From: an uncultured Candidatus Poseidoniales archaeon
GTDB taxonomy: Archaea; Thermoplasmatota; Poseidoniia; Poseidoniales; Poseidoniaceae
NCBI GenBank assembly: GCA_905181785.1
Contig: CAJIZC010000023.1
Coordinates: 1 to 64,000, forward strand
Length of the DNA: 64,000 bases
Direction: 5' to 3'
The notes below the pieces were generated by a model. That model had not been told where the DNA came from. It searched no databases and saw only the letters and a list, made by a program, of their open reading frames with translations. The translations under genes and the position numbers were made by a program. Below, one piece after another: positions 8,608-48,305 of the stretch. How positions within the stretch are numbered: position 1 is the stretch's first letter; every line of letters starts with the position of its first letter.

Positions 8608-8612
8608 TCAGT

Positions 8613-22637: not shown

Positions 22638-22663
22638 AGCAGGTCGTGAGGGGATTGAGTCCC

Positions 22664-31825: not shown

Positions 31826-31864
31826 AGGGCATCTTTGATACGGGTTGAAGTGAAAGGGAGCGAC

Positions 31865-34483
31865 ATGCAGATGATACAAAACAGGTCAACAAAAAACCTC
31901 GTGTGTTTGATTCTTGTCGCCCTTTTTTGCGCACAATCCTACCAACCACTGGCACCTGAACCCTTGCTTGAATCCCCCCACGATGTGGCGCATGCAGGCC
32001 CTGCTACGCGAATTGCAATCACCTCGCCGGTCTACGCAATGACCGCTGATGAAGTGACCACATTTGAGGCCACATTGTACGATGCCGTCAACAGCGTTGC
32101 CACTGGACAAATCAACTGGTCCAGTTCAAACGGTACCATCACCGAAGACGGAACGTTCTACCCATGGCAGGCTGGCTTAGTGAGCATCGAAGCGAGCAGT
32201 GGAGCACTCATGGCCGTGTTCAACATCACAGTGAGTGCAGGTGTTGGACAAACCCTCGACATTACCACCTCCACCGCCCATGCTCGTGTGAGCACGACTC
32301 TTCAAGCCAACCTTCTGGATGCGAGGGGGAATTCCAAACCCGCTGAGAATGTGGTGTGGACGGTTGATGGCCAGTACGTCGGCATTGGTGCGCCGCAATG
32401 GACTCCAACAGAACTTGGTGACGTGCAGATCAGAGCCCGCCTCAACCAAATGGAAGACAACGCAGTCGTCGAAGTTGTTGCTGGTGCGCCATACGCCTTC
32501 CTTTTTGAGGAAAATCTGCAAATCCGGAGTGGGGAATCAACCTACCTTCAGGTTCGATTGCTTGATCATAACGGTTACGAAATGAACAACACCGAGGCAG
32601 GTTACAAAACATGGACGGCCGAAAATGGCACCATGAGTCCAGTGGGGCGATACACGGCGACTTATCCCGGCGTGTGGAACTTGACGGTGGCAGCAGGCAA
32701 TGCAACCGGTGTCGCTACGATTCGAGTGGTACCTGCTGATGCATCGCTCTCTCAACTTACAGTTGTGCCCGATCTCGATGTTTATGTCGCAGGCCAAGCC
32801 TACGAACTTGTGACCATGCGCACCGATTCAAACGGGTACACCGGTTTTTTCACACCCCCGTTGGCTAATTTTTCAACCACAAGCGGTGGTTTGGCCTTTG
32901 TTGACGGGCGAGTGCATTGGACCCCTGGTGCAATGGGCCAGCATACTTTGAACGTCATCGATGAGGGCGTTGCGTCCTCGCTTGAATTGGCGGTGACCCA
33001 TGGCGATGCCATTGACACATCACTCAGTCTCGATCCTGTGACCCTCCGCGCTGGCCAGCAAAACGTTCTTTCGTTCTGGGCCATCGATAACTCTGGCAAC
33101 CAGTGGCTCGTCAATGGGACGATGTCGCTGATCAGTGGCAATGCAAGTCACTTCACTCCGGATGAAGGCTACGCAACGCTTTCTCCTCTAGCGCTTGGCG
33201 TGTGGCGCGTTGAGGCTTCATGGTACGATTCAACCTCAAACATACGCTTTGAGAGCACCTTCCAACAGGAAACACAAACCGGGCCATTGGCTTTCATTGA
33301 ATTGAACGGTGCAAATCAAGTTCTTGCTTCAGACACCTCCCTTGACCTGAACCCAACCTTCTACGATGGGTTTGGTAACGAATTGCCACCCATTGGATTA
33401 AACTGGACTGTAGACGGTGAAGATGCGACGGTTGAATTGATGCTCGCTGACATGCATTGGACCCCCTCCAAAGTAGGCGGTCACGAAATCCGTGCGAATG
33501 CAGATGGCATCTTTGCGACCATCCGCTTAACCGTTGTAGCTGGGGAGGCACGAAACTTGGTCACCGACTATGAAAGCGGCCTCACCGTGAGTGCTGGCGT
33601 ACCTACAGAGGTGTTCGTGCAAGTGATCGACGCTCACGGGAACATGGCACCAGCAACCAATGTCAGCCTCTTGCTGAATGAAGAATTTGGCGTGCTTGAA
33701 GCCTCGCCATCTGGAAACGGATATTGGGACTTTACCGGCCGCATCTCGGGCACTTACACCCTTGAACTCAGTCAAGCCAACGCCACACATTCGATCGACT
33801 TGTTCATTCAGCCCGGCCAAGCCGTTCGCGTCTTGGCGGACTTGGACGGTTTCGACATCGCCCAAGGCGACACAGTCCTTCTGCAACTTCAAGGCGTTGA
33901 TGAATTCGACAACCTTGTGATCGTAGAACCTGAAAACACAACCGTATCCTGCACGGCTGGAAAGGCGAGTTACGTGACCTCAGATACTTGGGAACTCAAC
34001 GTCAATAAAGCAGGCGATGATCGTTCTTGCACCGTCAATTGGGACGGCTTGATCACTCAACGTTTCTTTGATGTCGAATCCGTTCTTCTTGGTGGCGCAG
34101 TTGGTTCAACGAACACAGCCATGACGCTTGCTTCGTTTTTGCTCGGGCTGATTTTAATCACCTTGGTTGTCCTTGTCCGTCGGGTGAACAGCGCGGAAGA
34201 TGAGGAATGGGTCGAAGACGCATTCGAAGAAGATGAGGAAGCCAACGATGAAGAAAGCACCTCGTTCGATGAGGCGACTGAAGGTCCAGCAAACGATCCT
34301 GCTTCAGAACCTGGTTTGTCTGATGAGGTGAAAGCAAGCCTCGCTACCAAGGCTGCAGAAGTCGGAGTTATGCAAGCCGCACCCGGCACTGAACAGGGGC
34401 AATCCGGCTGGTATGTTGATGTCAGCACCGAGGTTCAGTATTGGGATGTCGGGGCCGATGGCTCGTGGACACAGGTGAGTTGA
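31865..34483 (+). CDS. Membrane-anchored surface protein of Ig-like repeats
   Basis: 872 residues from ATG 31865, which AAAGGGAG precedes closely. Signal peptide with hydrophobic core LVCLILVALFCAQSY, then about seven Ig-like/invasin-type repeats of ~100 residues (e.g. ITSPVYAMTADEVTTFEATL; WSSSNGTITEDGTFYPWQAG), a membrane helix at ~752-772 and a long acidic cytosolic tail (DEEWVEDAFEEDEEANDEE) ending in the Trp-rich SGWYVDVSTEVQYWDVG. The repeats resemble residues ~2200-2920 of the giant protein directly upstream (39 bp gap, same strand), suggesting duplication and cotranscription. Probably structural or adhesive; no catalytic motif seen. Confidence 0.82.
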   Translation: MQMIQNRSTKNLVCLILVALFCAQSYQPLAPEPLLESPHDVAHAGPATRIAITSPVYAMTADEVTTFEATLYDAVNSVATGQINWSSSNGTITEDGTFYPWQAGLVSIEASSGALMAVFNITVSAGVGQTLDITTSTAHARVSTTLQANLLDARGNSKPAENVVWTVDGQYVGIGAPQWTPTELGDVQIRARLNQMEDNAVVEVVAGAPYAFLFEENLQIRSGESTYLQVRLLDHNGYEMNNTEAGYKTWTAENGTMSPVGRYTATYPGVWNLTVAAGNATGVATIRVVPADASLSQLTVVPDLDVYVAGQAYELVTMRTDSNGYTGFFTPPLANFSTTSGGLAFVDGRVHWTPGAMGQHTLNVIDEGVASSLELAVTHGDAIDTSLSLDPVTLRAGQQNVLSFWAIDNSGNQWLVNGTMSLISGNASHFTPDEGYATLSPLALGVWRVEASWYDSTSNIRFESTFQQETQTGPLAFIELNGANQVLASDTSLDLNPTFYDGFGNELPPIGLNWTVDGEDATVELMLADMHWTPSKVGGHEIRANADGIFATIRLTVVAGEARNLVTDYESGLTVSAGVPTEVFVQVIDAHGNMAPATNVSLLLNEEFGVLEASPSGNGYWDFTGRISGTYTLELSQANATHSIDLFIQPGQAVRVLADLDGFDIAQGDTVLLQLQGVDEFDNLVIVEPENTTVSCTAGKASYVTSDTWELNVNKAGDDRSCTVNWDGLITQRFFDVESVLLGGAVGSTNTAMTLASFLLGLILITLVVLVRRVNSAEDEEWVEDAFEEDEEANDEESTSFDEATEGPANDPASEPGLSDEVKASLATKAAEVGVMQAAPGTEQGQSGWYVDVSTEVQYWDVGADGSWTQVS

Positions 34484-34673: not shown

Positions 34674-36119
34674 TCACTCGGTCTTCACTGTGCCTTCACG
34701 TAGGCTTTGGAAGGGGGTCACTCTGTGCTCAGCGTGCTGCTTTCCATACCCGAGGTAAAAGAGGGCACCAAGTGTAAGCGCTGCTGCTGCACCGATGAAG
34801 GCTTTGCTCCCCATGAGGTAAATGAGAATGAAGCCAGCCACGATGCCCCAGATCTGAATCCACGGATAAAAATGGGATTTGTATTCGGGGTTGTACCATT
34901 CTTTGGCTGCTGGTGCTCGGCGCAGCACGATAACGCATGAATTGATAAGCATGAAAATCATAATTTTGAATCCAGACGCAAGCTTTGCTACATCCTTGAC
35001 GGGGAGGAAAAGAATGGCCAAGAGCATCATCACCCCTGTCACTATGATCGGCCAATGAGGTGTGCCGTATTTTTGATTGACATCTCCTAATGATTTTGGA
35101 AGCAGATTGTCGAGGGACATTGCGTACAAAAACCGGGATGCGGCGAGGATGCCGGCAAGAGCCATCGAGATCATTGTCAACACGGCGAGGGCCGCTGCGA
35201 GGGCGCCAATCTTTGAGCCTGCTACAACCTTGACGAATTCATACACTGGGTCTTCAATTGGCTTACCGTCTTTCATGTACCACATGTCAGGTAGCGCAGC
35301 CATCATCACGTAGGTCATAACGCAGTAGAGGATGGTTGCAATAGCCAGAGAGAGCATGATTCCCATTGGCAGGTTGCGCCCGGGTTCTTTCACTTCGCCA
35401 CCGATGGCAGCGACCTTGGTGACTCCTGCATAGGCTACAAAGACAAATGCAGCCGTCTCGGCAATCGTTGCTGGTGATTGGTCAAACGCACCGTTTCCGC
35501 CGTTAATCGGACGGGAGAAGTCCGTGCTGCCATCGAACAAGGCCATGATGCAAATGATTGCCAGAAGGACCATCGTAACGCCAAGAATTGGAGTTTGAAT
35601 CGCCTTTACCTTCTTGACGCCAAGAATATTGACAGCGGTGATGAGAACGAGTGCAGAAACTGAAACCATGAGGATTTCTCGCTCCCCAAGAGTGACCTCA
35701 AAATAAGTTGTTAATGCCAGCATGTAGGCCGAAAAACCAATCAGCGCAAACGAAGCCTTGAGTAAAAACGAAGCCCATAATCCGAGCCCGCTGATCGTTC
35801 CAAACAACGGTCCATAGGTTCGTTCAAGGTAGACATATGAGCCGCCACTGGATGGCATTGCAGAAGCAAGTTCAGATTTTGAAAGGGCACCCGGGAGCAC
35901 CACTGTTGCAGCAAGCAAGAACGCCAACCAGATGCCAGGTCCCATCATTTCAGCGGCAAAAGCAGGCATTACAAACAGGCCGGAACCGAGCATCGAGGAA
36001 AGGGATATGACGACGATACCTGACAACCCTACAGTTCGCTCAATCGTTTGAGTGACATCCTCGATGACCCCTTTGACATCACCTTGGAGAAGTTTGCCTG
36101 CTGTACTTTTCAAATCCAT
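34674..36119 (-). CDS. APC-superfamily amino acid permease
   Basis: 481 residues from ATG 36119 (a TTG at 36125 adds two). About 12 hydrophobic helices, with the APC signature in helix 1 (SLSSMLGSGLFVMPAFAAEM) and helix 2 (PGALSKSELASAMPSSGGSYVYLERTYG). It should import amino acids or amines across the cytoplasmic membrane, coupled to protons or sodium, or by exchange. Substrate is not readable. It lies downstream of the two extradiol-dioxygenase genes, 110 bp after the fusion gene, with its own TATA box and two operator-like inverted repeats. The position suggests uptake of the pathway's amino-aromatic or amino-acid precursor, as inference. Confidence 0.88.
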   Translation of the reverse strand: MDLKSTAGKLLQGDVKGVIEDVTQTIERTVGLSGIVVISLSSMLGSGLFVMPAFAAEMMGPGIWLAFLLAATVVLPGALSKSELASAMPSSGGSYVYLERTYGPLFGTISGLGLWASFLLKASFALIGFSAYMLALTTYFEVTLGEREILMVSVSALVLITAVNILGVKKVKAIQTPILGVTMVLLAIICIMALFDGSTDFSRPINGGNGAFDQSPATIAETAAFVFVAYAGVTKVAAIGGEVKEPGRNLPMGIMLSLAIATILYCVMTYVMMAALPDMWYMKDGKPIEDPVYEFVKVVAGSKIGALAAALAVLTMISMALAGILAASRFLYAMSLDNLLPKSLGDVNQKYGTPHWPIIVTGVMMLLAILFLPVKDVAKLASGFKIMIFMLINSCVIVLRRAPAAKEWYNPEYKSHFYPWIQIWGIVAGFILIYLMGSKAFIGAAAALTLGALFYLGYGKQHAEHRVTPFQSLREGTVKTE

Positions 36120-36140
36120 TGTCAAACCCCGAAAAAGTAC

Positions 36141-36174
36141 TGGTATTTCACCAATAATCTATGGTAAACCACCA
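36141..36174 (-). promoter_or_regulatory. Two operator-like inverted repeats TGGT-N5-ACCA at the permease promoter
   Basis: tggtatttcacca (36141-36153) and tggtaaaccacca (36162-36174) share the form TGGT-N5-ACCA and are 21 bp apart, two helical turns on the same DNA face. They lie between the TATA-like box (36177-36184) and the permease start codon, overlapping the expected transcription start near 36155. A repressor binding here would block initiation. The regulator is not identified in the window. Confidence 0.55.
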
Positions 36175-36176
36175 AA

Positions 36177-36184
36177 TCATATAG
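36177..36184 (-). promoter_or_regulatory. TATA box of the permease gene
   Basis: On the minus strand CTATATGA fits an archaeal TATA box. Transcription would start ~25 bp downstream near 36155, giving a leader of about 35 nt that contains one operator-like repeat. Confidence 0.5.
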
Positions 36185-36228
36185 GGTTGTGGAACACTTC
36201 CCTTAGTGAACCCCCGAAAAACGGAACC

Positions 36229-37641
36229 TCAGTTTAACTTCGGAGCCTTGGCGATGACTTTCATCTCCACTGCAATGGGCGTTGGGAGGGCGCGAATGGC
36301 GAGCGTGGTCCTTGTTGGCCCCACCCTCCCAAGCGTGTTAGCCCAGACTTCATTGTAGCCACTGAAATCCCGATCCATGTCGACAAGGAATGAAGTGACG
36401 TCCAAGACATCTTCAATCGAACCACCGGCTTCTTCTAAGATTCTGGTGATGTTGTCAACAACGGCTTGGGTTTGAGCCTTGATGTCGTATTCCAGAGGGT
36501 TGCCTTGTCCATCGCTGATCGGGCCACCGGGAATTGCGTTGGTGCCTGGTTGGCGCGGACCGACACCCGAGAGGTAGAGTAGATCCCCCACCCTTCGAGC
36601 GTGGGGGTACATGCCAACTGGTTTGGGGGCTGCATCACTGTTGACGGAATCCGCTCCTGTCGTTGGCTCCCACAGTGCGGGGCCGCTGGTCTTTGGAGTG
36701 GCTTCGACGATGATTTCAGTTTCTTCTTCTGCATCGAGGACATTCCGTTCACCTGCGAAGTATTCGACATCGTCTTCGTCGTACTCTTTGTCACCGGCAC
36801 CAGATGCAGCCGGATCGAGGTGCACAACTGCACCTCCTGCGCCATGAATTGCCTCATAGGCCAACACTTCACCTGTCAGGTTGTTTCTGTTGTCGTTCAT
36901 TCCAGAAAGCCACCACATCGGTTTGAACGCTACGACCTTTTGAACGCGAATTTGTTTATGGATGGTGCGAGAAAGTTGCCCCACGTCTTCGAGGCGGCCT
37001 TCGCCGAGGAATTCGAGGATTTTTCGGTTCCATTCATCGTCTTTTAGCGAGTGGATTTTGTCATCTTTTGGCTCGATCGGAGCGGTGAACATGCGGTTGG
37101 ACAGCGACATTGCGGTCACAGCAACGGCTTTTCGTCCGGTTGCTTTGATCACATCGAGGCATGCTTTGGCCAAAACTGTCGTTTCGGAGCGATTGGCGTA
37201 CACGTTTGATGAAACGATGACAGCAGGAATTGCGTTGTCTGGGTTGAGCAGTTTGAGCGCCACAACCGAGCCAACATCGATTGGGAATCCTGTGTAGTTG
37301 ACCGTCCTTGATTTCAAGCCTCGCTTCTCGTTTGCCTCGTTCCATGCGTGAGCAAAATCAGCGTCGATGTTGAATGAGTAAGGGATTGAACCGAGGTCGT
37401 GAAAGTCGTCATCAACCATCACCCATTCGGGGTTTGGATTGGCTTGAATCTGATGGCCAATGATGCTCGGCCAGGTGGTTGAGTAGATGATAAGGAGGTC
37501 CGCATCAGCGTCCTTAATCCGTTGCGCTGCCTCATCAAAGGCAAGACGCAAGCGCTGCCATCCTTCATTTTGTTCCGGCACCAATACTGTGTGCGGGTGG
37601 ACCGGTACAATGTAGGATCCAACAATTTCTCCTTCAGTCAT
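36229..37641 (-). CDS. Fusion: inactive extradiol dioxygenase subunit (AmnA-like) plus 2-aminomuconate deaminase-like RidA domain
   Basis: 470 residues. Residues 1-~260 are a LigB-type class III extradiol dioxygenase domain paralogous to the next gene (both begin MT[EQ]GEIV). Its iron-binding positions are lost: Val14, Thr56 (YSTTWPS) and Asn (SLSNRMF) stand where the active subunit has His14, His63 and His196. This matches the non-catalytic alpha subunit of 2-aminophenol 1,6-dioxygenase. An acidic linker (~290-335) leads to a RidA/YjgF domain (~345-470, HARRVGDLLYLSGVGPRQPG; GPTRTTLAIRALP) resembling AmnD, which deaminates 2-aminomuconate. The start overlaps the beta subunit stop as ATGA. 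The fusion would join ring cleavage to a later deamination. Confidence 0.8.
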   Translation of the reverse strand: MTEGEIVGSYIVPVHPHTVLVPEQNEGWQRLRLAFDEAAQRIKDADADLLIIYSTTWPSIIGHQIQANPNPEWVMVDDDFHDLGSIPYSFNIDADFAHAWNEANEKRGLKSRTVNYTGFPIDVGSVVALKLLNPDNAIPAVIVSSNVYANRSETTVLAKACLDVIKATGRKAVAVTAMSLSNRMFTAPIEPKDDKIHSLKDDEWNRKILEFLGEGRLEDVGQLSRTIHKQIRVQKVVAFKPMWWLSGMNDNRNNLTGEVLAYEAIHGAGGAVVHLDPAASGAGDKEYDEDDVEYFAGERNVLDAEEETEIIVEATPKTSGPALWEPTTGADSVNSDAAPKPVGMYPHARRVGDLLYLSGVGPRQPGTNAIPGGPISDGQGNPLEYDIKAQTQAVVDNITRILEEAGGSIEDVLDVTSFLVDMDRDFSGYNEVWANTLGRVGPTRTTLAIRALPTPIAVEMKVIAKAPKLN

Positions 37642-38540
37642 TGAGATGCCTCCTTGTGGTCACGTTCTGGCCATTCGACAATGGCGTTTCCAGTCCCGAT
37701 GATGGTTCCATACCCGTGCAAGGTCGCTGGATAGGTTGGAACATCAAGGGTCGAGAGGAGCCATGAGAGTCCACCTCCATCGCTTTCAGCGATGGCTTGT
37801 TCGGTGAATTCTGGCATTTCATTAAGGATTCTTTGAGCTTGGCCAGTGCGGAAGTAATCGATCATTCGCATGTCCCAAAGGTGCATGGCGTGGCTTGTGA
37901 TGTGTTCTTTGCTCATGTCTTCGGGGATGGCGGATTCAGTGGTGAAATGACGGTGGGAAAGGGAATTGCTGGCGATCACGACAACTTTCTTTCCACTTTC
38001 TAAAATTGCTTCTCGGGTCACTTTGCCGAGTTCGATCATCATTTCTTGCATCACTTCGACGGAGTAGTAGTCCCTTGAACGGTTGCTTGAGATGACCACG
38101 AGTGGTTTGTCCCATGCAGGGTTGAACATGTGGCCCGTGGTGATGGTGCCGTAGTCGACTCTGAAGTCTGGATTCTCCATCATTTTCACAGCCAAGCCTG
38201 CTTCTGCTGCTTTGTCGTGGATTTTCGAGGTCAAATCGACATCGATGTTGAGGTCATAGTGGTAGCGAAACAAGTTCGGAAACACCGGGTCCACGGACAG
38301 GCTTTTGAAATTGGGAAGGCCCAAAAAATGAGTACCTACGTAGGTTTGCCAGTGTGGGGAAAGCAAAACGATAGCGTCGTATTCGACGTCTTTTAGGGAT
38401 TCACGCAATCGTTCATAACCCCAACGCAGCTGTTCCCAACCGCCTTCTGCAACCGGTTCGTTTTGTGGTGGATTCTCAGCATAGACCAAGTGAGGCGGAT
38501 GCGGGGCTAAACAACCAGCAACGATTTCACCTTGCGTCAT
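37638..38540 (-). CDS. Catalytic subunit of LigB-type extradiol dioxygenase, 2-aminophenol 1,6-dioxygenase-like
   Basis: 300 residues, as for AmnB (~305). Expected Fe(II) ligands and base are all present with LigB-family spacing: His14 (APHPPH), His63 (SPHW), Glu252 (IAESDGGG) and His196 (SLSHRHF). The family opens aromatic rings next to an amino or hydroxyl group using O2; 2-aminophenol gives 2-aminomuconic 6-semialdehyde. Close relatives also act on protocatechuate or homoprotocatechuate, so substrate is inferred from the RidA and ALDH genes nearby. The frame is open to 38708, but a TATA box ~27 bp before ATG 38540 and the shared MTQGEIV start argue for the shorter form. Coupled by ATGA to the fusion gene. 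Confidence 0.85.
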   Translation of the reverse strand: MTQGEIVAGCLAPHPPHLVYAENPPQNEPVAEGGWEQLRWGYERLRESLKDVEYDAIVLLSPHWQTYVGTHFLGLPNFKSLSVDPVFPNLFRYHYDLNIDVDLTSKIHDKAAEAGLAVKMMENPDFRVDYGTITTGHMFNPAWDKPLVVISSNRSRDYYSVEVMQEMMIELGKVTREAILESGKKVVVIASNSLSHRHFTTESAIPEDMSKEHITSHAMHLWDMRMIDYFRTGQAQRILNEMPEFTEQAIAESDGGGLSWLLSTLDVPTYPATLHGYGTIIGTGNAIVEWPERDHKEASQ

Positions 38541-38563
38541 GGACAGAGCCACATGCTTGGTGG

Positions 38564-38570
38564 CTATATC
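38564..38570 (-). promoter_or_regulatory. TATA box of the dioxygenase genes
   Basis: GATATAG on the minus strand is centred about 27 bp before ATG 38540, predicting a leaderless transcript that begins at or near the start codon of the catalytic subunit. No TGGT-N5-ACCA repeat is seen here. Confidence 0.5.
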
Positions 38571-38641
38571 GGCATCGGCGTTTCGCCCGTTCAATCGCCC
38601 GTAGACCCAAGCCTCAAACAAGGGGGCGATTTGGCACATCC

Positions 38642-39163
38642 ATGGAGGAGAGCGCCACGGAACAAATCGTTGAGGTTCCCCTCGATTCACCTTCGTTGAC
38701 GGAAGCAAAGCCTGTGAGCCTTATTGAAGATCTCAAAACCGGATTGAAGCACATCGTTGCTCCAGCCCTTCTTGGGGCTCTGTTTGGCGGCGGCTGGCAG
38801 CGCTATGGATTGCCTAAGTTGGACTCAGTATTCGCACCAAACCCTGTCCAATTCGCCCTTCTTTCCGCTTTACTTCTTACGCCACTTATCTATCGAATAT
38901 TGGTTCATACGTCCTTTGCTCGGTGCTTGGAATACAGCTTTGGTTTCTCTGCATTGGCCCTACCCTTATGCGTGGTTTGGCTGTCTGGTTGGGGGGCTTT
39001 GTTCTGTGGAATGTATGCCATCCTTCTGGCGTGGGTGTCGGTTTCCATGATGTGGACTCGAAGGCAGTTACCACCATTCTCGTACGGGATTTGGCACGCT
39101 ATGGGCGTCGACTTGGGTGCCTTTGCCGGGGCTGTTTTGATGTACAACGCCCTTGGACTATGA
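38642..39163 (+). CDS. Hypothetical five-helix membrane protein
   Basis: 173 residues from ATG 38642. A ~35-residue cytosolic N-terminus (MEESATEQIVEVPLDSPS) precedes about five hydrophobic segments (IVAPALLGALFGGGW; FALLSALLLTPLIYRILV; GFSALALPLCVVWLSGW; LFCGMYAILLAWVSVSMMW; LGAFAGAVLMYNALGL). No family recognised. It is divergent from the dioxygenase (101 bp apart) and overlaps the end of panB by 6 bp on the opposite strand. It is the only plus-strand gene in this region. Frame open to 38465, but that part overlaps the dioxygenase gene antisense. Confidence 0.65.
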   Translation: MEESATEQIVEVPLDSPSLTEAKPVSLIEDLKTGLKHIVAPALLGALFGGGWQRYGLPKLDSVFAPNPVQFALLSALLLTPLIYRILVHTSFARCLEYSFGFSALALPLCVVWLSGWGALFCGMYAILLAWVSVSMMWTRRQLPPFSYGIWHAMGVDLGAFAGAVLMYNALGL

Positions 39164-39979
39164 GGTGTAACTTTCCGAGTCGCTCGGGAAATCGCCAGAG
39201 CGTACATCCTCGCAGTAACTTGTGATTGCGGTGTTGATGTCCTCGGCAAGGTTGAGGTAACGTCGCAAGAACCGTGGAGAGAAGTCCATCGTGATTCCAA
39301 GCAGATCGTGGAGCACCAACACCTGACCGTCGCAGTCTGGACCGGCTCCGATGCCAATTGTTGGAATCGAAATCTCTTCGCTGACTCGCTTTGCCAATTC
39401 CCTTGGAATCTTTTCAAACACGATGGCGAAGCATCCGGCGGCTTCCAATAATTTAGCGTCGGCGATGAGTTTCTCCGCTTCTTCTTCTTCTTTGGCCCGA
39501 ACGGTGTAGGTTCCAAACTTGTAGATGGATTGCGGTGTGAGGCCCAAGTGACCCATAACTGGGATCCCAGCGGTGAGAATGCGCTCGATGGACTGAATGA
39601 TTTCAGAACCTCCTTCGAGTTTCACAGCGTGGCCTTCTGCTTCCTTCATGATGCGAATGGCAGATTCAAGAGCGATTGCGGAATTGCCTTGGTAGGTTCC
39701 AAAGGGCATGTCGACCACAATAAGAGCACGGTCAACGGCTCGTTGAACGCACTGTGCGTGATAGATCATGTGGTCGAGGGTCATTGGCACGGTTGTGACT
39801 TGACCAGCCATCACGTTTGACGCCGAGTCACCAACGAGAATAACATCCACTCCCGCTTGGTCAACCAACTTGGCCAAGGAATAATCATATGCGGTAAGCA
39901 TGGTGATTTTTTCTTCAGCCCGCTTCATCTCAAGAAGCGTGTGCGTCGTCACCTTACGCGCATTGCTGTGTACGGACAT
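39158..39979 (-). CDS. panB: 3-methyl-2-oxobutanoate hydroxymethyltransferase (ketopantoate synthesis)
   Basis: 273 residues, typical PanB length. It forms ketopantoate from 2-oxoisovalerate and 5,10-methylene-THF, the first step to pantothenate and CoA. Motifs: ITMLTAYDYSLAKLVDQAGVDVILVGDS with the metal-binding Asp residues, DMPFGTYQ, VKLEGG, MGHLGLTPQS, FEKIPRELA and IGIGAGPDCDGQVLVLHDLLG. All are canonical. It needs a THF C1 donor, consistent with the folate enzyme Fhs elsewhere in the window. It lies between the dioxygenase genes and the LON-domain gene without a clear functional link. Confidence 0.96.
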   Translation of the reverse strand: MSVHSNARKVTTHTLLEMKRAEEKITMLTAYDYSLAKLVDQAGVDVILVGDSASNVMAGQVTTVPMTLDHMIYHAQCVQRAVDRALIVVDMPFGTYQGNSAIALESAIRIMKEAEGHAVKLEGGSEIIQSIERILTAGIPVMGHLGLTPQSIYKFGTYTVRAKEEEEAEKLIADAKLLEAAGCFAIVFEKIPRELAKRVSEEISIPTIGIGAGPDCDGQVLVLHDLLGITMDFSPRFLRRYLNLAEDINTAITSYCEDVRSGDFPSDSESYTS

Positions 39980-40030
39980 GGTTCCCCCACAGTTTCAGGT
40001 GCTTTGAAACCCTCGCCGGCCCTTACGTGG

Positions 40031-40759
40031 TTATTCTTCCTCGTAAACGGCTGATAATTGATGCATCAATTCTGCTAAAGCTTCCTCTTCATCGGCGCTT
40101 GCCAAAACTTGTTGCTTTGATTCAAGGCCATTGAGCACTAAGGCTGCGACAGTGAACACTGAGTTTGGATCTTCGTCTATGACATGTTCAACGCGTTCTG
40201 CAACCCATGAATCGAGCACCTGCTCATCGATACGCAGCACCGCTCCAATCCGATTCAGCACGCCGTTGAGAACATCTCGTAGCATGGTTTGGTGGGTTGA
40301 GTTTGTTGGTCCACTGCTTTCATGATAGCGCACTTTGGCAGAGATGTACAACTTCTGATGGAGTGACGATTCGGGTATGTGCTCGAGAATCGTTTGCAGG
40401 TCGGGAAACATGCCTTCTTCGGGCATCACTGCTTCCATCGAAGGGTGTTCAAACGGAGGCAAGGCTGGTGCTATGACTTCCTCGACTGTAAACCGGCGGC
40501 GTCCTACAATGGAAAGGAAATGATTGCTTCCTTTGGTTTCATGCTCTAAGATTTCAGCCTCGCAACCGTGGGTCCTCGGGCCATCCCAATGGTTTGTTGG
40601 CTCGAACGGATCGTTCATCACGAGCCCGAAGTTTTTGTTATCGAGCACACAATCATCAAGCATTTGTCTGTATCTTGGTTCAAACACCCTAAGTTCTTGC
40701 ACCTCACCAGGCATGAGCACCATAGGAAGGACAAACAGTGGAAGGGTTTCACTCGTCAT
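40031..40759 (-). CDS. Stand-alone LON substrate-binding-domain protein
   Basis: 242 residues with the N-terminal domain of Lon (PF02190-like): LPLFVLPMVLMPGEVQELRVFEPRYRQML at the start (20 residues or fewer of it suffice: LPLFVLPMVLMPGEV), GLVMND, GCEAEILEH and VGRRRFTVEEV. No ATPase or protease domain follows; the rest is helical with an acidic end. Such proteins occur in bacteria and archaea and are of unclear function, possibly substrate adaptors. The archaeal LonB at 61 kb lacks this domain, so a partnership is conceivable but unsupported. It sits 51 bp before panB and 50 bp after the aldehyde dehydrogenase. Confidence 0.82.
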   Translation of the reverse strand: MTSETLPLFVLPMVLMPGEVQELRVFEPRYRQMLDDCVLDNKNFGLVMNDPFEPTNHWDGPRTHGCEAEILEHETKGSNHFLSIVGRRRFTVEEVIAPALPPFEHPSMEAVMPEEGMFPDLQTILEHIPESSLHQKLYISAKVRYHESSGPTNSTHQTMLRDVLNGVLNRIGAVLRIDEQVLDSWVAERVEHVIDEDPNSVFTVAALVLNGLESKQQVLASADEEEALAELMHQLSAVYEEE

Positions 40760-40809
40760 GGGTGTTGTTTGGCCAAATCGCTTTTGAAGATGTGTTCATC
40801 ATCACCCAA

Positions 40810-42249
40810 TCATTTCGGATTCATAACGCAGACGTTGGTGGTTTCTGAAAAGAATTCGAGCGACCATTGCCCACCTTCGCGGCCAACACCAGAGTTCTTC
40901 ACGCCACCGAAGGGGGTTCTCAAATCTCGATGAAGCCAGGTGTTAATCCAAACAATCCCAGTTTCAATGGTCGTTGCGAGGGCTTGCCCTTTTTCGAGGT
41001 CGGCCGTCCAAATCGACCCTGCCAAACCATACTCGGTTGCGTTCGCCATCACCGTCGCTTGTTCCAGCGTCTCAAAGGTATGAACGGTCACGACAGGTCC
41101 GAATATTTCCTCAGTTGCGCACCTTGAAAGATGGCTTAAGCCAGAAATCACGGTTGGTGAGAGGTAGGCGCCATCAGGATTCGGCCCAATTGCACCGGTC
41201 ATTGCACGTGTTCCACCAGTGAGAATCGTACCGCCCTCTTCTACGGCCAAATCGATGTATGACTCCACTTTTTCGAGGTGATCCATAGAAATAAGGGTGC
41301 CAATTTGTGAAGATGATTCAACGGGGTTCCCAATTGTCATTGATTTCACTTCGGCCACGAACGCAGCAAGGAAGGTGGAGGCGATGGAGGCATGGACCAA
41401 GATGCGAGATCCACACAGGCACACCTGGCCAGAATTTGTGAAGGCAGCACGGACCGCACCGTTGACGGCTTGGTCCATGTCAGCATCCTCGAGGACAATC
41501 GTTGCGTTTTTTCCACCCAGTTCCAATGACAATTTTTTGAACAACGGTGCAGCGGTTGCGGCAACAATTCGACCGGTAGCGGTGCCGCCAGTGAAGGAAA
41601 TCCCAGTGATTCTTTGATCTTCTAAAATGGCTTGGCCGACTTCTGGGCCAAGACCGTGGACGAGGTTGAACACGCCTTTGGGCACCTGCAATTCATCAAG
41701 GGTTTCGGCCAGAATGTTTGCTGTCAAGGGCGTCAATTCACTTGGCTTGGCAACGATTGCGTTGCCCATCAACAGCGCAGGAGCCACCTTCCAAGACAGG
41801 AGGTAAAGCGGTAGGTTCCACGGTGTGATGAGGCCAACAACGCCAAGTCCATTTCGATGAACATGGTTGACCGCATCGTCCATCTCAAACATCATTGGCT
41901 TCTGTAAGCGTCCGAATTCTGCAAAGAATCTGAAATTATCCACGCTTCGAGAGGCATCAACGCGTCGAGAAAGAGAAATCGGCTTTCCCGTATCCATCGT
42001 CTCGGCCTGAGCAATCGCTTCGTGCTTTTCTTGCAACGCATCTGCGATTTTATCGAGCCAAGCGGCGCGTTCTTTGAGGCTCAAAGCGTTCCAAGCAGGT
42101 TGGGCTTTTTTTGCAGCAGCTGCTGCTTGCGCCACATCTGCTGATTGAGAGCGTGGGATTGATGCCACAACCTTTCCAGTTGCAGGATTGTAATTTTCAA
42201 GAGTCTGTCCGTCGTTGGCGTGGACAAATGTGCCGTCGATGTAATTCAT
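40810..42249 (-). CDS. Aldehyde dehydrogenase, 2-aminomuconic/2-hydroxymuconic semialdehyde type
   Basis: 479 residues from ATG 42249, a normal ALDH length. The NAD-binding segment TPWNLPLYLLSWKVAPAL, the general-base Glu in SLELGGKNATIV and the nucleophilic Cys in SGQVCLCGSR are intact. The end TPFGGVKNSGVGREGG and NVC are characteristic of ALDH8-like muconic-semialdehyde dehydrogenases (AmnC, XylG, ALDH8A1). It would oxidise the ring-cleavage semialdehyde to 2-aminomuconate, the substrate expected for the RidA domain at 36.2-36.6 kb. It begins 14 bp after the asparaginase-II gene, so cotranscription is likely. Exact substrate inferred from context. Confidence 0.85.
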   Translation of the reverse strand: MNYIDGTFVHANDGQTLENYNPATGKVVASIPRSQSADVAQAAAAAKKAQPAWNALSLKERAAWLDKIADALQEKHEAIAQAETMDTGKPISLSRRVDASRSVDNFRFFAEFGRLQKPMMFEMDDAVNHVHRNGLGVVGLITPWNLPLYLLSWKVAPALLMGNAIVAKPSELTPLTANILAETLDELQVPKGVFNLVHGLGPEVGQAILEDQRITGISFTGGTATGRIVAATAAPLFKKLSLELGGKNATIVLEDADMDQAVNGAVRAAFTNSGQVCLCGSRILVHASIASTFLAAFVAEVKSMTIGNPVESSSQIGTLISMDHLEKVESYIDLAVEEGGTILTGGTRAMTGAIGPNPDGAYLSPTVISGLSHLSRCATEEIFGPVVTVHTFETLEQATVMANATEYGLAGSIWTADLEKGQALATTIETGIVWINTWLHRDLRTPFGGVKNSGVGREGGQWSLEFFSETTNVCVMNPK

Positions 42250-42263
42250 GAGGTGGTGCAAGG

Positions 42264-43379
42264 TTATGCCTCCACATCGTACAACCAACGGTCTTGATCC
42301 GGATCCCATTCATCCCATGTTGGCAATGTTTCGAGGACTTCAAGGTACTTATCAGGAACGATTCCGGGAACAATGAAGGCTTTCTGCCTGTGGAGCGGGT
42401 ATGGGTTTCTCAGGTTGATGCCAAGCACCCCGAGCAAAGCCCGTGCTACATACCAAGTGGCTTGAGAATTCCAGCCATGCGCAATCTTGACGACAATCCC
42501 AAGACCCTTGGGGTAATCTGGATGTTCGATCGCTAAGCCCAACAAACCATCAGCGCCTTCCTTGGCGATGACCTTGCCTTCTCCTGCTTTGAGCACGGTA
42601 GAATCCAATCGATTGAACCCGCCAACCAAATCAGGATGGCGCGTCATTGCTTCCCAAATCCAATCCTTGTCTTTGTCGCGAACCAAGCCAGCGTAGATTT
42701 GAGCTAATTCGGATACAGTGTTGGACACAGTGGGTAAGCCGCAACCATCCTTGGCTACGCGCAACGGTTGCCAATCTGCGCCGAGGTAAGTTCGGATTTC
42801 GGCCATGTAAGCGTGGAACACTTCATGGGTTGGCAGGGTGTAACCGGCTCGATTCCAGCCTTTTTTCCGGCAGCCATGGAGGATGGCTGCGTGTTCACCA
42901 GAACAGGTGTGGAACCAACGGCGTGGACGACGCACTTGCCGTCCAAATTGAATCAGAGGCACATCCAACGGAGTGAGCATCAGCGGCCATTCTTCCTTTG
43001 CGAGTAAGGACTGTGCTGCTGCGACGTGTTCGGTATCGCCGTTGTGGGAGGCGACAGAAATCGCTTTCTGTTCCCATGTTGTGTCTTCCAGTTCCTTTGT
43101 GAAAGCTTTGAGCATAAACGGTTTCATCATCGAACGGCCATAACAAAGGACATTGCCTCCAAATGAATGAATCACTTCGTCACCGTGCGCCCATGCCACA
43201 GCACCGTGGATGGTGGTTTCAGAAACGCCGTTGCGGCGGTAATCAACAAGTGGCTCCCATGCCACTTCACGCCCAGTAGGAATGCCTTCGACCTTCTCGC
43301 CGAGTGGGCTGTCAGGATACATCGCACTGCCGGGTCTGCCCGGTTCGACAGCGGAAGGTGTATCGTGCTCAATGGACAT
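42264..43379 (-). CDS. Asparaginase II family amidohydrolase
   Basis: 371 residues of the L-asparaginase II family (Rhizobium etli AnsA type, PF06089), unrelated in fold to GatD-type asparaginases. Family motifs: GRSMMKPFMLKAF, SVASHNGDTEHVAAAQSLL, TCSGEHAAILHGCRKKGW, KDGCGLPTVSNTVSELAQIYA and HGWNSQA. The SxMK and cysteine motifs of the family are present. No signal peptide. It would release ammonia from asparagine or another amide. It is tightly packed between the flavin monooxygenase (9 bp) and the aldehyde dehydrogenase (14 bp), so a role in the same catabolic route, such as amide hydrolysis of a precursor, is possible. Confidence 0.88.
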   Translation of the reverse strand: MSIEHDTPSAVEPGRPGSAMYPDSPLGEKVEGIPTGREVAWEPLVDYRRNGVSETTIHGAVAWAHGDEVIHSFGGNVLCYGRSMMKPFMLKAFTKELEDTTWEQKAISVASHNGDTEHVAAAQSLLAKEEWPLMLTPLDVPLIQFGRQVRRPRRWFHTCSGEHAAILHGCRKKGWNRAGYTLPTHEVFHAYMAEIRTYLGADWQPLRVAKDGCGLPTVSNTVSELAQIYAGLVRDKDKDWIWEAMTRHPDLVGGFNRLDSTVLKAGEGKVIAKEGADGLLGLAIEHPDYPKGLGIVVKIAHGWNSQATWYVARALLGVLGINLRNPYPLHRQKAFIVPGIVPDKYLEVLETLPTWDEWDPDQDRWLYDVEA

Positions 43380-43388
43380 CTAAACACC

Positions 43389-44636
43389 TCAATTGTTCAA
43401 CTCGACTTCGACCAGTGGTACGACCTGTTCCATGTAGGCCGTCATGTTTCTACAGACGCGATCTGAATCGTGATTAAAGAAATCGAACCACGCCATAATG
43501 CGGTCTTCAGGATGGAACCGCTCGAGGATTTGCTGCGCCACTTCTTCGACGTTGCCTATGAGGGCGTTGTTTGCTGCGTTGCTGACCTTGCTCGGATCGA
43601 TGGTTCCTTCGAGGGCGTTCCAATACGCGCCAAGCGCCTCATCAGCTTCTTTCCGTGCTGCTGCACTTTGTTCAGCGGGTGTCAACCCTGGTTCTGCGTT
43701 CAAGAACACGAAGGAGGTTCTCGGCATGTCGCTTCGTTGCCATGCCCCTCCGGATGGGTGAAACACTTCGGCCATCCGAGCGTGTGTGGCTTCGATGACT
43801 TCTGGTTTGGTGATTGAAAGATTGAACACTTTGACAGGTAGAATGGTGTTGAGGAACGTTTGGGCTTTTGGGTCATGGGTTCCAGCCACGAGTTGTAAGA
43901 GTTCCTTGCGAAAGTCGGTCGGGATAATTTTCAAGTCTTCAAAGACATAGCGCTTTGGTATTGCAATTTGGTCAGGTTTTGTGGCCAAGTTTTCAGCCTC
44001 AACCGCTGCATTCTGAACCCGTTCCCAATCTTCGTCTGAACGGAAGTGAGCGCGAGTTAACACCGTCTCGTAAGTTTGCGTGGAATTGATGACATCGCCT
44101 CGCAACAAGCGGAGGAATACATCACCTGCTTCCATGAATATTTGGCCTCGCAGTGCAGGCCAGGCGGCCTCTTCTACAGCGTTTCTTGGCACGATCCCAT
44201 ATGGGCGGGCCATGAATTCAAAACGACCTGCAGAAAACCCGACGTGCAACCTTCGCTGCTCATCTTGGTTCAGTCCGTGGAGTTGGAGTGTGTTTGCGAT
44301 TCGCTCTGCTTGAGCAATCGGTCCACCAGACGCTAAGATGGACACAACAGCGCTGCCGATTTCGATGCTTGATGTTCTGCGGAATGATTCCATGGCCAGT
44401 TGAGGGAAGTCCGTGCACAACCCGACTTCACCCTGCCAGTGAGGGACCACAGGCCGAGCGTTGCTCTTTTGGGTCTCGGTGGAAAGGTGAGCCTGAGCGA
44501 TCCATCCAACGCCGAAGCCGAGGCGGTCAGCGCACTCGAGTTGTTGGAAGTAATTGGTGAACATTTGATTCTCAGTTGGCACTTGACCCGCAGCGTCGGG
44601 GGTCTGGCTGATTGAGAAAAAGATGTCATGGTCCAT
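43389..44636 (-). CDS. Luciferase-like flavin-dependent monooxygenase
   Basis: About 415 residues from ATG 44636 (MDHDIFFSISQ); ATG 44672 would add 12. It belongs to the bacterial-luciferase TIM-barrel family that uses reduced F420 or FMN: GFGVGWIAQAHLS near residue 40, IGSAVVSILASGGPIAQAERIANTLQ (cofactor-binding region), HVGFSAGRFEFMARPYG. It is probably the first gene of a tight set with asparaginase II and ALDH. It may oxygenate an aromatic or amine precursor in the pathway; cofactor and substrate are unknown. The preceding TPR gene ends about 78 bp upstream of this start. Confidence 0.8.
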   Translation of the reverse strand: MDHDIFFSISQTPDAAGQVPTENQMFTNYFQQLECADRLGFGVGWIAQAHLSTETQKSNARPVVPHWQGEVGLCTDFPQLAMESFRRTSSIEIGSAVVSILASGGPIAQAERIANTLQLHGLNQDEQRRLHVGFSAGRFEFMARPYGIVPRNAVEEAAWPALRGQIFMEAGDVFLRLLRGDVINSTQTYETVLTRAHFRSDEDWERVQNAAVEAENLATKPDQIAIPKRYVFEDLKIIPTDFRKELLQLVAGTHDPKAQTFLNTILPVKVFNLSITKPEVIEATHARMAEVFHPSGGAWQRSDMPRTSFVFLNAEPGLTPAEQSAAARKEADEALGAYWNALEGTIDPSKVSNAANNALIGNVEEVAQQILERFHPEDRIMAWFDFFNHDSDRVCRNMTAYMEQVVPLVEVELNN

Positions 44637-44713
44637 AGGTGGCACCGGTTGTTCCAGTCGAAACCACATCATAACGAGTGTGGCGGAATTGGTTGATGAA
44701 TGCCGTTTGAGAT

Positions 44714-45550
44714 TCAGCGCTTTTCGTCGGAGGGGTTGAAATTTGTTAACGCCTCAATACGCTCTCGCACAGCGATTGGCGTCGGCAAACCAGCGTTGAT
44801 GAAGGCGTGAAGACAATCTGAAAGTTGGAGCATCGCCGTTTCATAGTCCTCTTCAATTTCAGCGATGTCCGCCAAGCCCCAACGAGCGACGAGTTGACCT
44901 GAGAGATCCTCCAGAACGACCGCCAGTTCAAGCGACTGTGTGTACAAATCCTTTGCCGCATCAAACTGCCCTAGAGTTGCTTGACTGTGACCCATGTCAG
45001 CCATGGCTTCCATTTGACCTTCCTCGTCCTTCATCTTCATCAGCAATTCGATGCGCCTCGACCCGTGAACCAGGGCGGTTTCGTGGTTGTGTTGCTTCTT
45101 GGCGAGGGCCTCAAGCAAGGCCAATCCATATGCAATCCCATTTTCATCCTTGACCGCCTCTCTTAGGCGCAGTGAACGGGTAGCGAACATTTGGGCTTCC
45201 TCATACGCTTCACTGGCCATGTGGAGCAGGGCTACGTGGTGGGCCATGGCCGCAGCAAGTGGTTCAGCACCCGCCATTGTTTCAGCATGAGCGGTTAATT
45301 CAGCGAGTTTCTCGATCGGGGCCTCTTCGATTTTGAGTTGTTCAAAGGTCGCCCAACCAGATTCGAGATCATCCGCAGCGTTTGTCTTGGCATGGGTGAG
45401 CAACCGTTCTGCAAGCGATTCATCCTCCAATTCCAAAGCGAGTGGAATAAGCCGGAGTGCGAGGGGGGTGTTGATGTCCTCCATCGCTCCGCCGTTGGTC
45501 AGCATGTCCAAGATTCGGCGTGCTTGTTCTGCGGTTACCTCGCCGTCCAT
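44714..45550 (-). CDS. TPR-repeat protein
   Basis: 278-residue soluble all-helical protein with tetratricopeptide-like repeats: EEAQMFATRSLRLREAVKD, ALVHGSRRIELLMKMKDEEG, AAKDLYTQSLELAVVLED and TAMLQLSDCLHAFINAG show the TPR spacing of small and large residues. No signal peptide or catalytic motif. Such proteins scaffold protein-protein contacts; partner unknown. It lies on the strand of the LLM-asparaginase-ALDH genes and is divergent from the secreted nuclease-like gene, 53 bp apart. Confidence 0.75.
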   Translation of the reverse strand: MDGEVTAEQARRILDMLTNGGAMEDINTPLALRLIPLALELEDESLAERLLTHAKTNAADDLESGWATFEQLKIEEAPIEKLAELTAHAETMAGAEPLAAAMAHHVALLHMASEAYEEAQMFATRSLRLREAVKDENGIAYGLALLEALAKKQHNHETALVHGSRRIELLMKMKDEEGQMEAMADMGHSQATLGQFDAAKDLYTQSLELAVVLEDLSGQLVARWGLADIAEIEEDYETAMLQLSDCLHAFINAGLPTPIAVRERIEALTNFNPSDEKR

Positions 45551-45603
45551 GGTTGACGGCTGTGGCCTCGCGTCAAGAACATATCTCCCAAGGCATTCCG
45601 CCG

Positions 45604-46617: not shown

Positions 46618-47478
46618 TCAGATACTTCGCAAACGCCCGCCATCAACAGCGAGGCTCACACCGCGAATTCCGCCAGACGCAGGTAGAGCCAAAAAGGCGA
46701 TTGCTGAAGCGGTTTCTAGCGGTTCAATCAACCGTTCAATCGGGACTTGATTCAACCAACCGGCCTGAACTTCATCCAGTGATTTTCCGGTTCGCTCTTG
46801 AATCGAGGCTGCTAAAGAACCGAGCCTTCCGGTGTTGGTGAACCCCGGTAGTACGTTGTTGATGGTGATGCAGGGTGCTAATTCGCGTGAAAGGGTCTTG
46901 GCCCAAGAGGCCATGGCGCCTCGCAGGGTGTTTGACAGACCGATGTTTGGAATCGGCTCTTTGACAGAGGTGGAGATGATTTGGATGATTCGGCCATATC
47001 CTGCGGCTTCCATCCCGGGCGCGAGAAGTTGCGTCAGTGTGTGAGCAGCGTGCAAATGACGCTTGAAGGGTGCTTCAAAATCTTCGAGGGAGTTTGCGAG
47101 CAGCGGTCCACCCGGCGGGCCTGCTGCATTGTTGATCAGCACGTGAACGGGCCCTTGCTGTTCAAGCAGAGTGGGAATGGCCTCTCGAATGGCAGAACTG
47201 TCTTCGAGGTCGAGGCACAACTTGGCGTGTGTGCCTTTGCCAAGCAGGGACAACTCGTCGCACAATGCGTCCAGTGCCTCACTGTTGCGGGCGCAGACGG
47301 TCACGTTCGCGCCAGCTTTTGCCATCATCTGAGCAGTGGCGCGGCCGATGCCTTTGCTGGCCCCGCATACCAGAGCATGCTTTCCTTGAAGGGCGGTTGC
47401 AGCGTAAGGAAAGTCATCACCAAGGAGGTTCATGACTGCCGCAGTAGGTGCTTGATGATAGGTCTTGGGATGTTTCAT
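46618..47478 (-). CDS. Short-chain dehydrogenase/reductase lacking the Tyr-x-x-x-Lys pair
   Basis: 286 residues from ATG 47478. Rossmann motif CGASKGIGRA, NNAAG and the FabG-like end NVLPGFTNTGRL and GIRGVSLAVDGGRLRS are clear. The catalytic segment reads STSVKEPIPNIGLSNTLRGA, so SNxxR stands where YxxxK is normal. This pattern marks a known atypical SDR subgroup whose chemistry is unclear. The ATG overlaps the stop of the upstream hydrolase as TGATG, indicating translational coupling. An additional internal ATG at 47433 is possible. Substrate unknown. Confidence 0.82.
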   Translation of the reverse strand: MKHPKTYHQAPTAAVMNLLGDDFPYAATALQGKHALVCGASKGIGRATAQMMAKAGANVTVCARNSEALDALCDELSLLGKGTHAKLCLDLEDSSAIREAIPTLLEQQGPVHVLINNAAGPPGGPLLANSLEDFEAPFKRHLHAAHTLTQLLAPGMEAAGYGRIIQIISTSVKEPIPNIGLSNTLRGAMASWAKTLSRELAPCITINNVLPGFTNTGRLGSLAASIQERTGKSLDEVQAGWLNQVPIERLIEPLETASAIAFLALPASGGIRGVSLAVDGGRLRSI

Positions 47479-48224
47479 CAAAGCCAATCGAGAACCGCAT
47501 TGAGTTGGACAAGCCAGTCATCGCTTGCCACATCTATGATGGAGTAGTGATCGCCTGGAAGCCATAATTTCTGAACATCCACACCCTTTGCCTTCATGAC
47601 ACGGGCGTAGGTTTCTGACTGTTCCTTGGGAACATCCTTGTCTTCTTCGCCGTGAACCAAGAGAATGGCAGCATCGGCTGGATTGTCAACGGGGTTCAAC
47701 CGCCGCCACTGTTCGGGAGATGCTTCTGGTGTGGACCCCATCCATCGTCGTACAGCATCCCCATCATCGGAAAGTTTGGCACGGTCAGCGCTCACCAAAT
47801 CTGTGATCGGAGCTTGGGCGATGGTTAACCATGGGCGGCGTTCAGCCTTTGCCGCCAACATCAAAGCCAAATGACCACCAGCTGAGTGCCCCATCACCAT
47901 TGAGCGTGTAATGTCGATGCCTGGCAACAATGCAAGTTGGCCCCACGCCCGAAGAACATCCGACAGCGTGTCCATCCAAACGCCTTCCTCGCCTTCGCTC
48001 CATCCCTTGAATTCAATGTTCCATGCGGCAATTCCTGCTTCAGCAAGATCATCGCCAATCGGTCTCATCAGTTCACTCGTCCATTCTGTTTTCCAAAATC
48101 CACCGTGAATCAGCATGATGCATGGAACGCCTGCGCTGTTTTGGAACGGAGATGGGTCGTCAGGCATGTGAAGGTCGGCATGTTGCCATGCTTCAGCACC
48201 CCATTGCATTCGGTCAACGGCCAT
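47478..48224 (-). CDS. Alpha/beta hydrolase with HGGxW motif, kynurenine formamidase-like
   Basis: 248 residues from ATG 48224 (MAVDRMQWGAEAWQ); ATG 48254 would add ten. The oxyanion motif LIHGGFWKTEW, nucleophile elbow MGHSAGGHLALM, Asp in HGEEDKDVP and His in LPGDHYSI complete the Ser-Asp-His triad. HGGxW is typical of the arylformamidase/esterase group (AFMID, BNA7), which hydrolyses N-formylkynurenine, though carboxylesterases also carry it. Coupled to the SDR gene. Given aminomuconate-type enzymes 4-11 kb away, a tryptophan-catabolic role is an attractive but unproven idea. Confidence 0.78.
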   Translation of the reverse strand: MAVDRMQWGAEAWQHADLHMPDDPSPFQNSAGVPCIMLIHGGFWKTEWTSELMRPIGDDLAEAGIAAWNIEFKGWSEGEEGVWMDTLSDVLRAWGQLALLPGIDITRSMVMGHSAGGHLALMLAAKAERRPWLTIAQAPITDLVSADRAKLSDDGDAVRRWMGSTPEASPEQWRRLNPVDNPADAAILLVHGEEDKDVPKEQSETYARVMKAKGVDVQKLWLPGDHYSIIDVASDDWLVQLNAVLDWL

Positions 48225-48305
48225 GATTGACTTTGGATGGGTCCGCCCTATCACCTTGCCTCTTCAACGGCAAGAGTTCAAGTGAGGCGTGTCTGTGGGT
48301 GAGTT

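Follow-up and report, generated by a model that had tools for sequence, protein, structure and literature searches.

We analyzed a 64,000-nucleotide stretch of DNA from an uncultured Candidatus Poseidoniales archaeon (positions 1 to 64,000 of contig CAJIZC010000023.1; hereafter, the window), whose source genome is 1.66 Mb in size and 79.75% complete, and focused on a block of minus-strand genes at 34674–48254 that includes homologs of the bacterial 2-aminophenol (Amn) meta-cleavage enzymes. Judging from gene content, protein families, active-site residues, linkage, and distribution—all read directly from sequence—this locus is probably (roughly 0.6) the middle of a tryptophan-degradation pathway that would operate without kynureninase. 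Extended to Marine Group II as a whole and to what is probably Marine Group III, the reading is a little less secure, yet we still favor it: these archaea would degrade tryptophan via a luciferase-like flavin monooxygenase (LLM), an asparaginase-family enzyme, and the Amn module, i.e., along an unrecognized branch of the kynurenine pathway.

In the proposed route, tryptophan 2,3-dioxygenase (TDO; encoded elsewhere in the window's genome) would convert tryptophan to N-formylkynurenine, from which an α/β hydrolase would remove the formyl group to yield kynurenine, with deformylation falling before or after ring release. The LLM would then oxidize kynurenine in a Baeyer–Villiger reaction, placing an oxygen atom between ring and side-chain carbonyl and giving aspartate β-(2-aminophenyl) ester—which could rearrange to N4-(2-hydroxyphenyl)-asparagine—and the asparaginase-II-like hydrolase would split this ester or anilide into L-aspartate and 2-aminophenol. 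The latter would be cleaved by AmnB/AmnA to 2-aminomuconate semialdehyde, oxidized by an aldehyde dehydrogenase (ALDH) to 2-aminomuconate, and deaminated by a RidA domain to 4-oxalocrotonate, which a short-chain dehydrogenase/reductase (SDR) might reduce to 2-oxoadipate for CoA metabolism.

The three Amn steps (dioxygenase, ALDH, and RidA deamination) are, by homology, very probably catalyzed by the encoded proteins. An earlier note on this DNA had placed a two-subunit LigB-type dioxygenase, a RidA domain, and an ALDH here, next to an amino acid permease. All are indeed encoded on the minus strand, the permease being of the APC family, and the best Protein Data Bank (PDB) matches of the others are aminophenol-pathway enzymes: the β subunit of 2-aminophenol 1,6-dioxygenase for AmnB (E 5e-107), the aminophenol dioxygenase α subunit for the AmnA domain (E 7e-38), 2-aminomuconate deaminase 6izh for the RidA domain (E 2e-25), and 2-aminomuconate-6-semialdehyde dehydrogenase for the ALDH (E 3e-135). 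The AmnB open reading frame (ORF) as listed extends to 38708, with homology beginning only at MTQGEIV. Its iron ligands, which the note had pointed out (His14, His63, His196, and Glu252), are kept in 100 of 100 aligned loci; by eye, the AmnA domain lacks the second histidine. Five β subunits encoded on bacterial plasmids share 50–54% identity with AmnB, against 21–27% for the next LigB-type proteins. In a tree of 34 rows, for which the tool warned of meeting long branches (outgroups and bacterial α rows included), ten archaeal β rows were sister to five bacterial β subunits and ten archaeal α rows to five bacterial α subunits, each with strong support. Phylogeny, which the note had suggested as a check, thus groups both subunits with bacterial Amn α/β and apart from the four other LigB-type proteins included; an HpaD-type or other LigB dioxygenase was rejected on this basis, the HpaD model also scoring far under its cut-off.

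The relationship of the ALDH likewise came out as the note had expected, as Arg120 and Arg464 (PfAMSDH numbering), which bind 2-aminomuconate semialdehyde, are kept along with Glu268 and Cys302 in 98–99 of 99 rows, the exceptions being one gap and one X (residue roles according to PMC4286809). The RidA cleft residues Ser, Gly, Arg, and Lys occur in 94/94 rows, and we equate them, via motif and not via the 6izh alignment, with Ser35, Gly36, Arg117, and Lys135 of the aminomuconate deaminase AmnE (PMC6742747). This domain shares 42% identity with a RidA protein encoded in the amn cluster of Pseudomonas veronii, and 27% with the pCNB one. AmnA and RidA are fused in 91 of 114 loci, split in six, and incomplete in 17 (i.e., fused in 91 of the 97 scorable loci); the split cases are L048, with one in-frame stop, and five loci of f3, a family in another order that we infer to be probably Marine Group III. 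Such a fusion naturally suggests that the dioxygenase α subunit and the deaminase work in the same pathway. As far as sequence can test it, the earlier reading of the aminophenol genes is supported, with two refinements: the deaminase is a fused domain, and the module extends to about 48254. Single stops were reported within amnB or LLM matches of several assemblies (G077, G161, G159, G122, and others); these matches extend to the last residues, so the stops may be the genes' own ends.

Linkage ties these genes to the remainder of the block. Adjacency of amnB and amnA was found in 94/94 testable loci, that of the LLM gene and the gene for the asparaginase II homolog (PF06089) in 92/92, and the PF06089 gene was followed by the ALDH gene in 95/97. 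The LLM and amnBA blocks are sometimes separate, with AmnB not downstream of ALDH in 13 of 30 testable loci (12 of them from lineage f2). The neighborhood is largely retained in the genomes of AmnB relatives and partly inverted in L062 and L078. TDO adjoins the SDR gene in all six f3 loci fetched, five of which share the order TDO–SDR–LLM–asparaginase–ALDH–AmnB–AmnA–RidA–formyltransferase fold, with AmnA and RidA as separate genes and, in two of the five, an additional hydrolase ahead of AmnB; in the sixth, L180, the block is cut after the asparaginase. Outside the class, locus L193 packs TDO, LLM, asparaginase, ALDH, AmnB, fused AmnA–RidA, an arylformamidase, and SDR into 11 kb of a single strand; a lipoprotein-like ORF on the opposite strand lies between TDO and LLM. 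L192 (genome G324) has the block from SDR through AmnA–RidA, and neither a TDO nor a formamidase-type match within the 20 kb fetched. A CitE/RipC-like lyase and a biotin carboxylase (by eye; L192:15508-18451) adjoin its module and are possibly lower-pathway genes.

The planktonic archaeal setting was borne out by a scan of named genomes that returned 161 AmnB relatives, the best 80 of which come from genomes carrying the names Poseidoniales, Poseidoniaceae, Poseidonia, Euryarchaeota, or euryarchaeote and from one Rhodobiaceae bin; the organism is accordingly a Marine Group II archaeon. Locus L068, filed under uncultured Rhodobiaceae bacterium, carries archaeal amn genes, and acyl-CoA dehydrogenase matches in its genome score like those of G000; it is likely a misnamed bin. 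Within the class, AmnB was present in 258 of 292 genomes, in 25/25 genera, and in 37 of the 38 best genomes (≥90% complete, ≤5% contamination). TDO was found in 266/292 genomes (265 over Pfam's cut-off) and 34/38 of the best. Of 194 genomes at least 75% complete, 183 had the LLM, as did 35/38 of the best. A phylum-wide draw (292 genomes, E ≤ 1e-30) gave 83 AmnB matches, outside the class only in G324 and G354. The Amn/TDO/LLM module is therefore a class-wide core trait. Neither AmnB, TDO, nor the LLM gave a listed match in two f3 genomes, G010 (97% complete) and G022, which suggests that these have lost the entire route.

Linkage and absences together make tryptophan a highly likely source feeding the module. 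The two TDO motifs looked for were found in 14/14 and 12/14 TDO proteins. In relatives, the position of the α/β hydrolase is occupied by a formyltransferase-fold gene or an arylformamidase. Among 79 loci with SDR, 47 have at least 1.5 kb of flank on both sides; 26 of these carry the hydrolase (within 4 kb) and 21 the formyltransferase fold (anywhere), with none having both or neither, while the other 32, with less flank, comprise 25 with the hydrolase, two with the formyltransferase fold, and five with neither. These alternatives are not independent events, since the loci share descent. The arylformamidase adjoining SDR in L193 (TIGR03035, E 6e-58) adds a third family, which makes N-formylkynurenine the common denominator: three unrelated families possibly share its deformylation. 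GxSxG is present in 49/49 hydrolases, N-x-H in 23/23 formyltransferase-fold proteins, and D-x-D-x-G in only 7/23 of the latter. The formyltransferase-fold gene (L099:7345-8061 and relatives) could instead transfer the formyl group to folate.

On the same grounds, the Baeyer–Villiger/asparaginase step is reasonably probable. Structural matching assigns the LLM a luciferase-like fold; PF00296 scored over cut-off in the LLM of L192, L193, and L099, and the window's protein, whose conserved start is probably near 44636, had no Pfam match. A homolog with 46% identity on Streptomyces clavuligerus plasmid pCLA1 (L154:15001-16245) has no module gene within 15 kb. The PF06089 protein keeps the Ser-Lys-Ser motif (Ser48/Lys51/Ser80, presumably the catalytic residues of ReAV) and matches 7os3, which we take to be Rhizobium etli ReAV (E 4e-16). 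Of the residues that presumably form the ReAV Zn site (Cys135/Lys138/Cys189), each cysteine is kept in 89/94 rows, and both are replaced in five f3 rows.

The best-surviving alternative, which we nonetheless regard as unlikely, is that an unrecognized kynureninase and a hydroxylase produce 3-hydroxyanthranilate, with AmnBA as its dioxygenase and the LLM as ring hydroxylase. This product is likewise an ortho-aminophenol, flavin monooxygenases are able to hydroxylate such rings, and the linkage to TDO and formamidase-type genes fits. Kynureninase, however, was over cut-off in one of 116 genomes (G045), with weak matches in 20 more. 3-Hydroxyanthranilate 3,4-dioxygenase (3-HAO) was over cut-off in two of 60 (strong in G045, marginal in G033 at 25.5 bits; ten further weak matches), with no control matched. 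No aminocarboxymuconate-semialdehyde decarboxylase (ACMSD) was recognized among the window genes scanned, no genome-wide search having been made. PF01494, a proxy for kynurenine 3-monooxygenase (KMO), matched in 60/60 genomes, and the nine matches classified comprise eight of the geranylgeranyl reductase family—to which the best match of the window's genome belongs—and one MhpA-like protein; since PF01494 is broad, a KMO is still conceivable. The dioxygenase, ALDH, and RidA domain all group with 2-aminophenol enzymes, and the asparaginase homolog would be left without a role.

Slightly less likely again, the LLM and the asparaginase homolog might work downstream of ring cleavage or take a different substrate—the LLM, for example, reducing 4-oxalocrotonate with F420 or FMN—while another enzyme splits kynurenine. 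F420 reductases and dehydrogenases belong to the fold family of the LLM, and the lower pathway has no assigned enzymes. Yet the kynureninase model found no other kynurenine-splitting enzyme, and the LLM–asparaginase pair is as tightly linked as amnB–amnA, which fits enzymes of successive steps.

The earlier note had envisaged an archaeal 2-aminophenol/aminomuconate meta-cleavage pathway. Taken as free-standing, it would use environmental 2-aminophenols and have its neighbors there by chance. Three consecutive Amn activities plus a permease speak for it, and at sequence level those three steps stand; the free-standing pathway does not, as the genes belong to a larger module pointing to tryptophan. 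The module occurs in every genus despite small genomes, the LLM, PF06089, and ALDH genes stay together also beyond the class, TDO lies within the same block in the probable Marine Group III loci and L193, and the lower Amn steps were not detected, so that we consider this version improbable. The note's observation that the later steps are missing from the window extends to a wider search: where a hydratase/decarboxylase pair is expected, FAA_hydrolase gave one match in nine of ten genomes and none in the tenth, and the DmpG aldolase (4-hydroxy-2-oxovalerate aldolase, TIGR03217) was over cut-off in 0/60 genomes (50 weaker matches), a search without positive control, as none of 14 control genomes exceeded the cut-off either. 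As a candidate Amn decarboxylase, the single FAA_hydrolase was rejected, its best model in the window's genome being PRK10691, itself below cut-off. A Rut-like pyrimidine pathway (LLM, RidA, hydrolase, and dehydrogenase) is very improbable, because the RidA domain best matches aminomuconate deaminase, the RutC model scored far under its cut-off, and neither an aminophenol dioxygenase nor TDO has a place in it.

For the lower end of the kynureninase-free route, linkage and absences allow the tentative suggestion that the SDR reduces 4-oxalocrotonate to 2-oxoadipate. Classical SDRs carry Y-x-x-x-K; the archaeal protein shows S-N-x-x-R (S-x-x-x-R pattern) in 77/77 rows, as do 5idx, 5va8, 5vps, and 1o5i at the classical motif in printed alignments. 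YwfH (3u49), which we take to be BacG, matches the motif segment (E 1e-4). BacG is a reductase of bacilysin synthesis (PMC9147277). A glutaryl-CoA step was not confirmed: all three acyl-CoA dehydrogenases in G000, and one of the four in G011, scored far below the cut-off of the glutaryl-CoA dehydrogenase model.

Several observations weigh against the kynureninase-free route. Against the solved chains listed, the LLM shows only 11–18% identity, and its fold matches also include F420 enzymes, RutA, and sulfonate monooxygenases; the fold is therefore no proof of Baeyer–Villiger chemistry, as structural matching cannot tell these classes apart. No flavin reductase was recognized in the block, no genome-wide search having been made, and the Zn-site lysine position of the asparaginase homolog is Glu in 89/94 rows and Gln in 5/94. 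At the entry, the window's α/β hydrolase has esterases and no formamidase among the matches listed, the formyltransferase-fold protein matched several formyltransferase models, all far under cut-off, and no formamidase model, and the L193 arylformamidase is below its cut-off. TDO lies on another contig (C5) in the window's genome, and the TDO of L099 and L193 exceeds the Pfam cut-off and falls under the stricter NCBIfam one. The SDR step draws on one motif. Finally, G045 (f2), which has LLM and AmnB, also encodes kynureninase and, on another contig, 3-HAO together with an ALDH and a gene that by eye resembles ACMSD; these extra genes represent either a second, classical route or contamination.

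Table 1 Features of the module in the window and classical-route genes of G045
Feature	Position	Strand	Basis or remark
APC-family amino acid permease	34674..36125	-	Common, not universal, neighbor
AmnA-like α subunit (residues 6-278) fused to RidA domain (residues 337-467)	36229..37641	-	470-aa ORF
AmnB-like catalytic β subunit, 2-aminophenol 1,6-dioxygenase (LigB family)	37638..38540	-	PDB match, tree, residues
PanB	39158..39979	-	Neighbor, not counted as pathway member
2-Aminomuconate-6-semialdehyde dehydrogenase-like ALDH	40810..about 42249	-	PDB match, residues
L-asparaginase II family (PF06089) hydrolase; proposed aspartate β-ester or β-anilide cleavage	42264..43379	-	Pfam match
LLM, candidate kynurenine Baeyer–Villiger monooxygenase	43389..44672	-	Luciferase-like fold
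SDR, S-N-x-x-R where Y-x-x-x-K expected; candidate 4-oxalocrotonate ene reductase	46618..47487	-	Motif
α/β hydrolase, GHSAG; candidate N-formylkynurenine formamidase	47478..48254	-	Locus position
G045 classical-route genes	L155:5089-6330; L156:3006-4631, 8518-9105, 9123-10166 (another contig)

Besides the LLM (427 aa) and the other genes discussed, the block includes genes for PanB, a LON-N-like protein, and a TPR protein. panB lies near amnB in most loci of f1 and in several of f2. Nine of ten genomes have a single copy, G020 has two matches located at contig ends, and the gene was not seen in the five f3 loci spanning the block. On these grounds, PanB was rejected as the missing aldolase and most likely serves CoA biosynthesis. 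PanB uses a folate one-carbon unit, through which it could conceivably be connected with the formyl group. The module is flanked by ORFs of 3059 and then 882 aa with surface-protein character by eye (22646–34483), and TDO of the window's genome lies near two haem A synthesis-like genes (CtaA/CtaB, by eye; L135:4337-8848).

No description of the module in Poseidoniales was found in the open-licence literature searched; this is weak evidence of novelty, as the kynurenine search was swamped by human kynurenine papers. Keyword searches of PMC6336850, PMC6864105, and PMC9723583 (main text) found no mention of aminophenol, kynurenine, or dioxygenase, nor was there any of kynurenine or tryptophan in the searched text of PMC10470539, on an aminophenol microcompartment. 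Part of the signal has already been counted, as both Poseidoniales and Marine Group III figure in PMC9535955 as archaea able to handle downstream aromatic intermediates. No Marine Group II archaeon is in culture, and the group is thought to metabolize lipids and peptides (PMC9723583); 2-aminophenol has been described as a pollutant (PMC3790839). If true, our reading would make the use of tryptophan carbon and nitrogen, along one route across the class, a core trait of archaea that are abundant at the ocean surface, and would offer cultivation and expression studies a concrete substrate. It would also imply a new way to split kynurenine, point to a natural source of 2-aminophenol, and give asparaginase II and luciferase-like monooxygenases a new use.

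With the bacterial Amn/Cnb pathway (Comamonas testosteroni CNB-1 pCNB, Burkholderia xenovorans LB400), the archaeal module has the dioxygenase, semialdehyde dehydrogenase, and RidA deaminase in common, whereas its AmnA and RidA are typically fused, the lower enzymes were not detected in the searches above, and it is core to a class and linked to LLM, asparaginase II, and, in some lineages, TDO. With the bacterial and eukaryotic kynurenine pathway it shares TDO, a deformylation-type gene, and the 2-aminomuconate semialdehyde dehydrogenase and deaminase stages; in contrast, kynureninase and 3-HAO are rare, and the ring would reach cleavage as 2-aminophenol. As for the two enzymes in between, the type II Baeyer–Villiger 3,6-diketocamphane monooxygenase of the luciferase-like superfamily is 13% identical to the LLM over aligned residues, and the LLM would differ from such enzymes in its proposed substrate, kynurenine. 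The archaeal homolog shares the Pfam match and Ser-Lys-Ser with L-asparaginase II; it lacks the Zn-site lysine, and its proposed substrate is an aryl derivative. The predicted pathway is thus Amn-like for three steps and not at its lower end, and kynurenine-like at its start and not after kynurenine.

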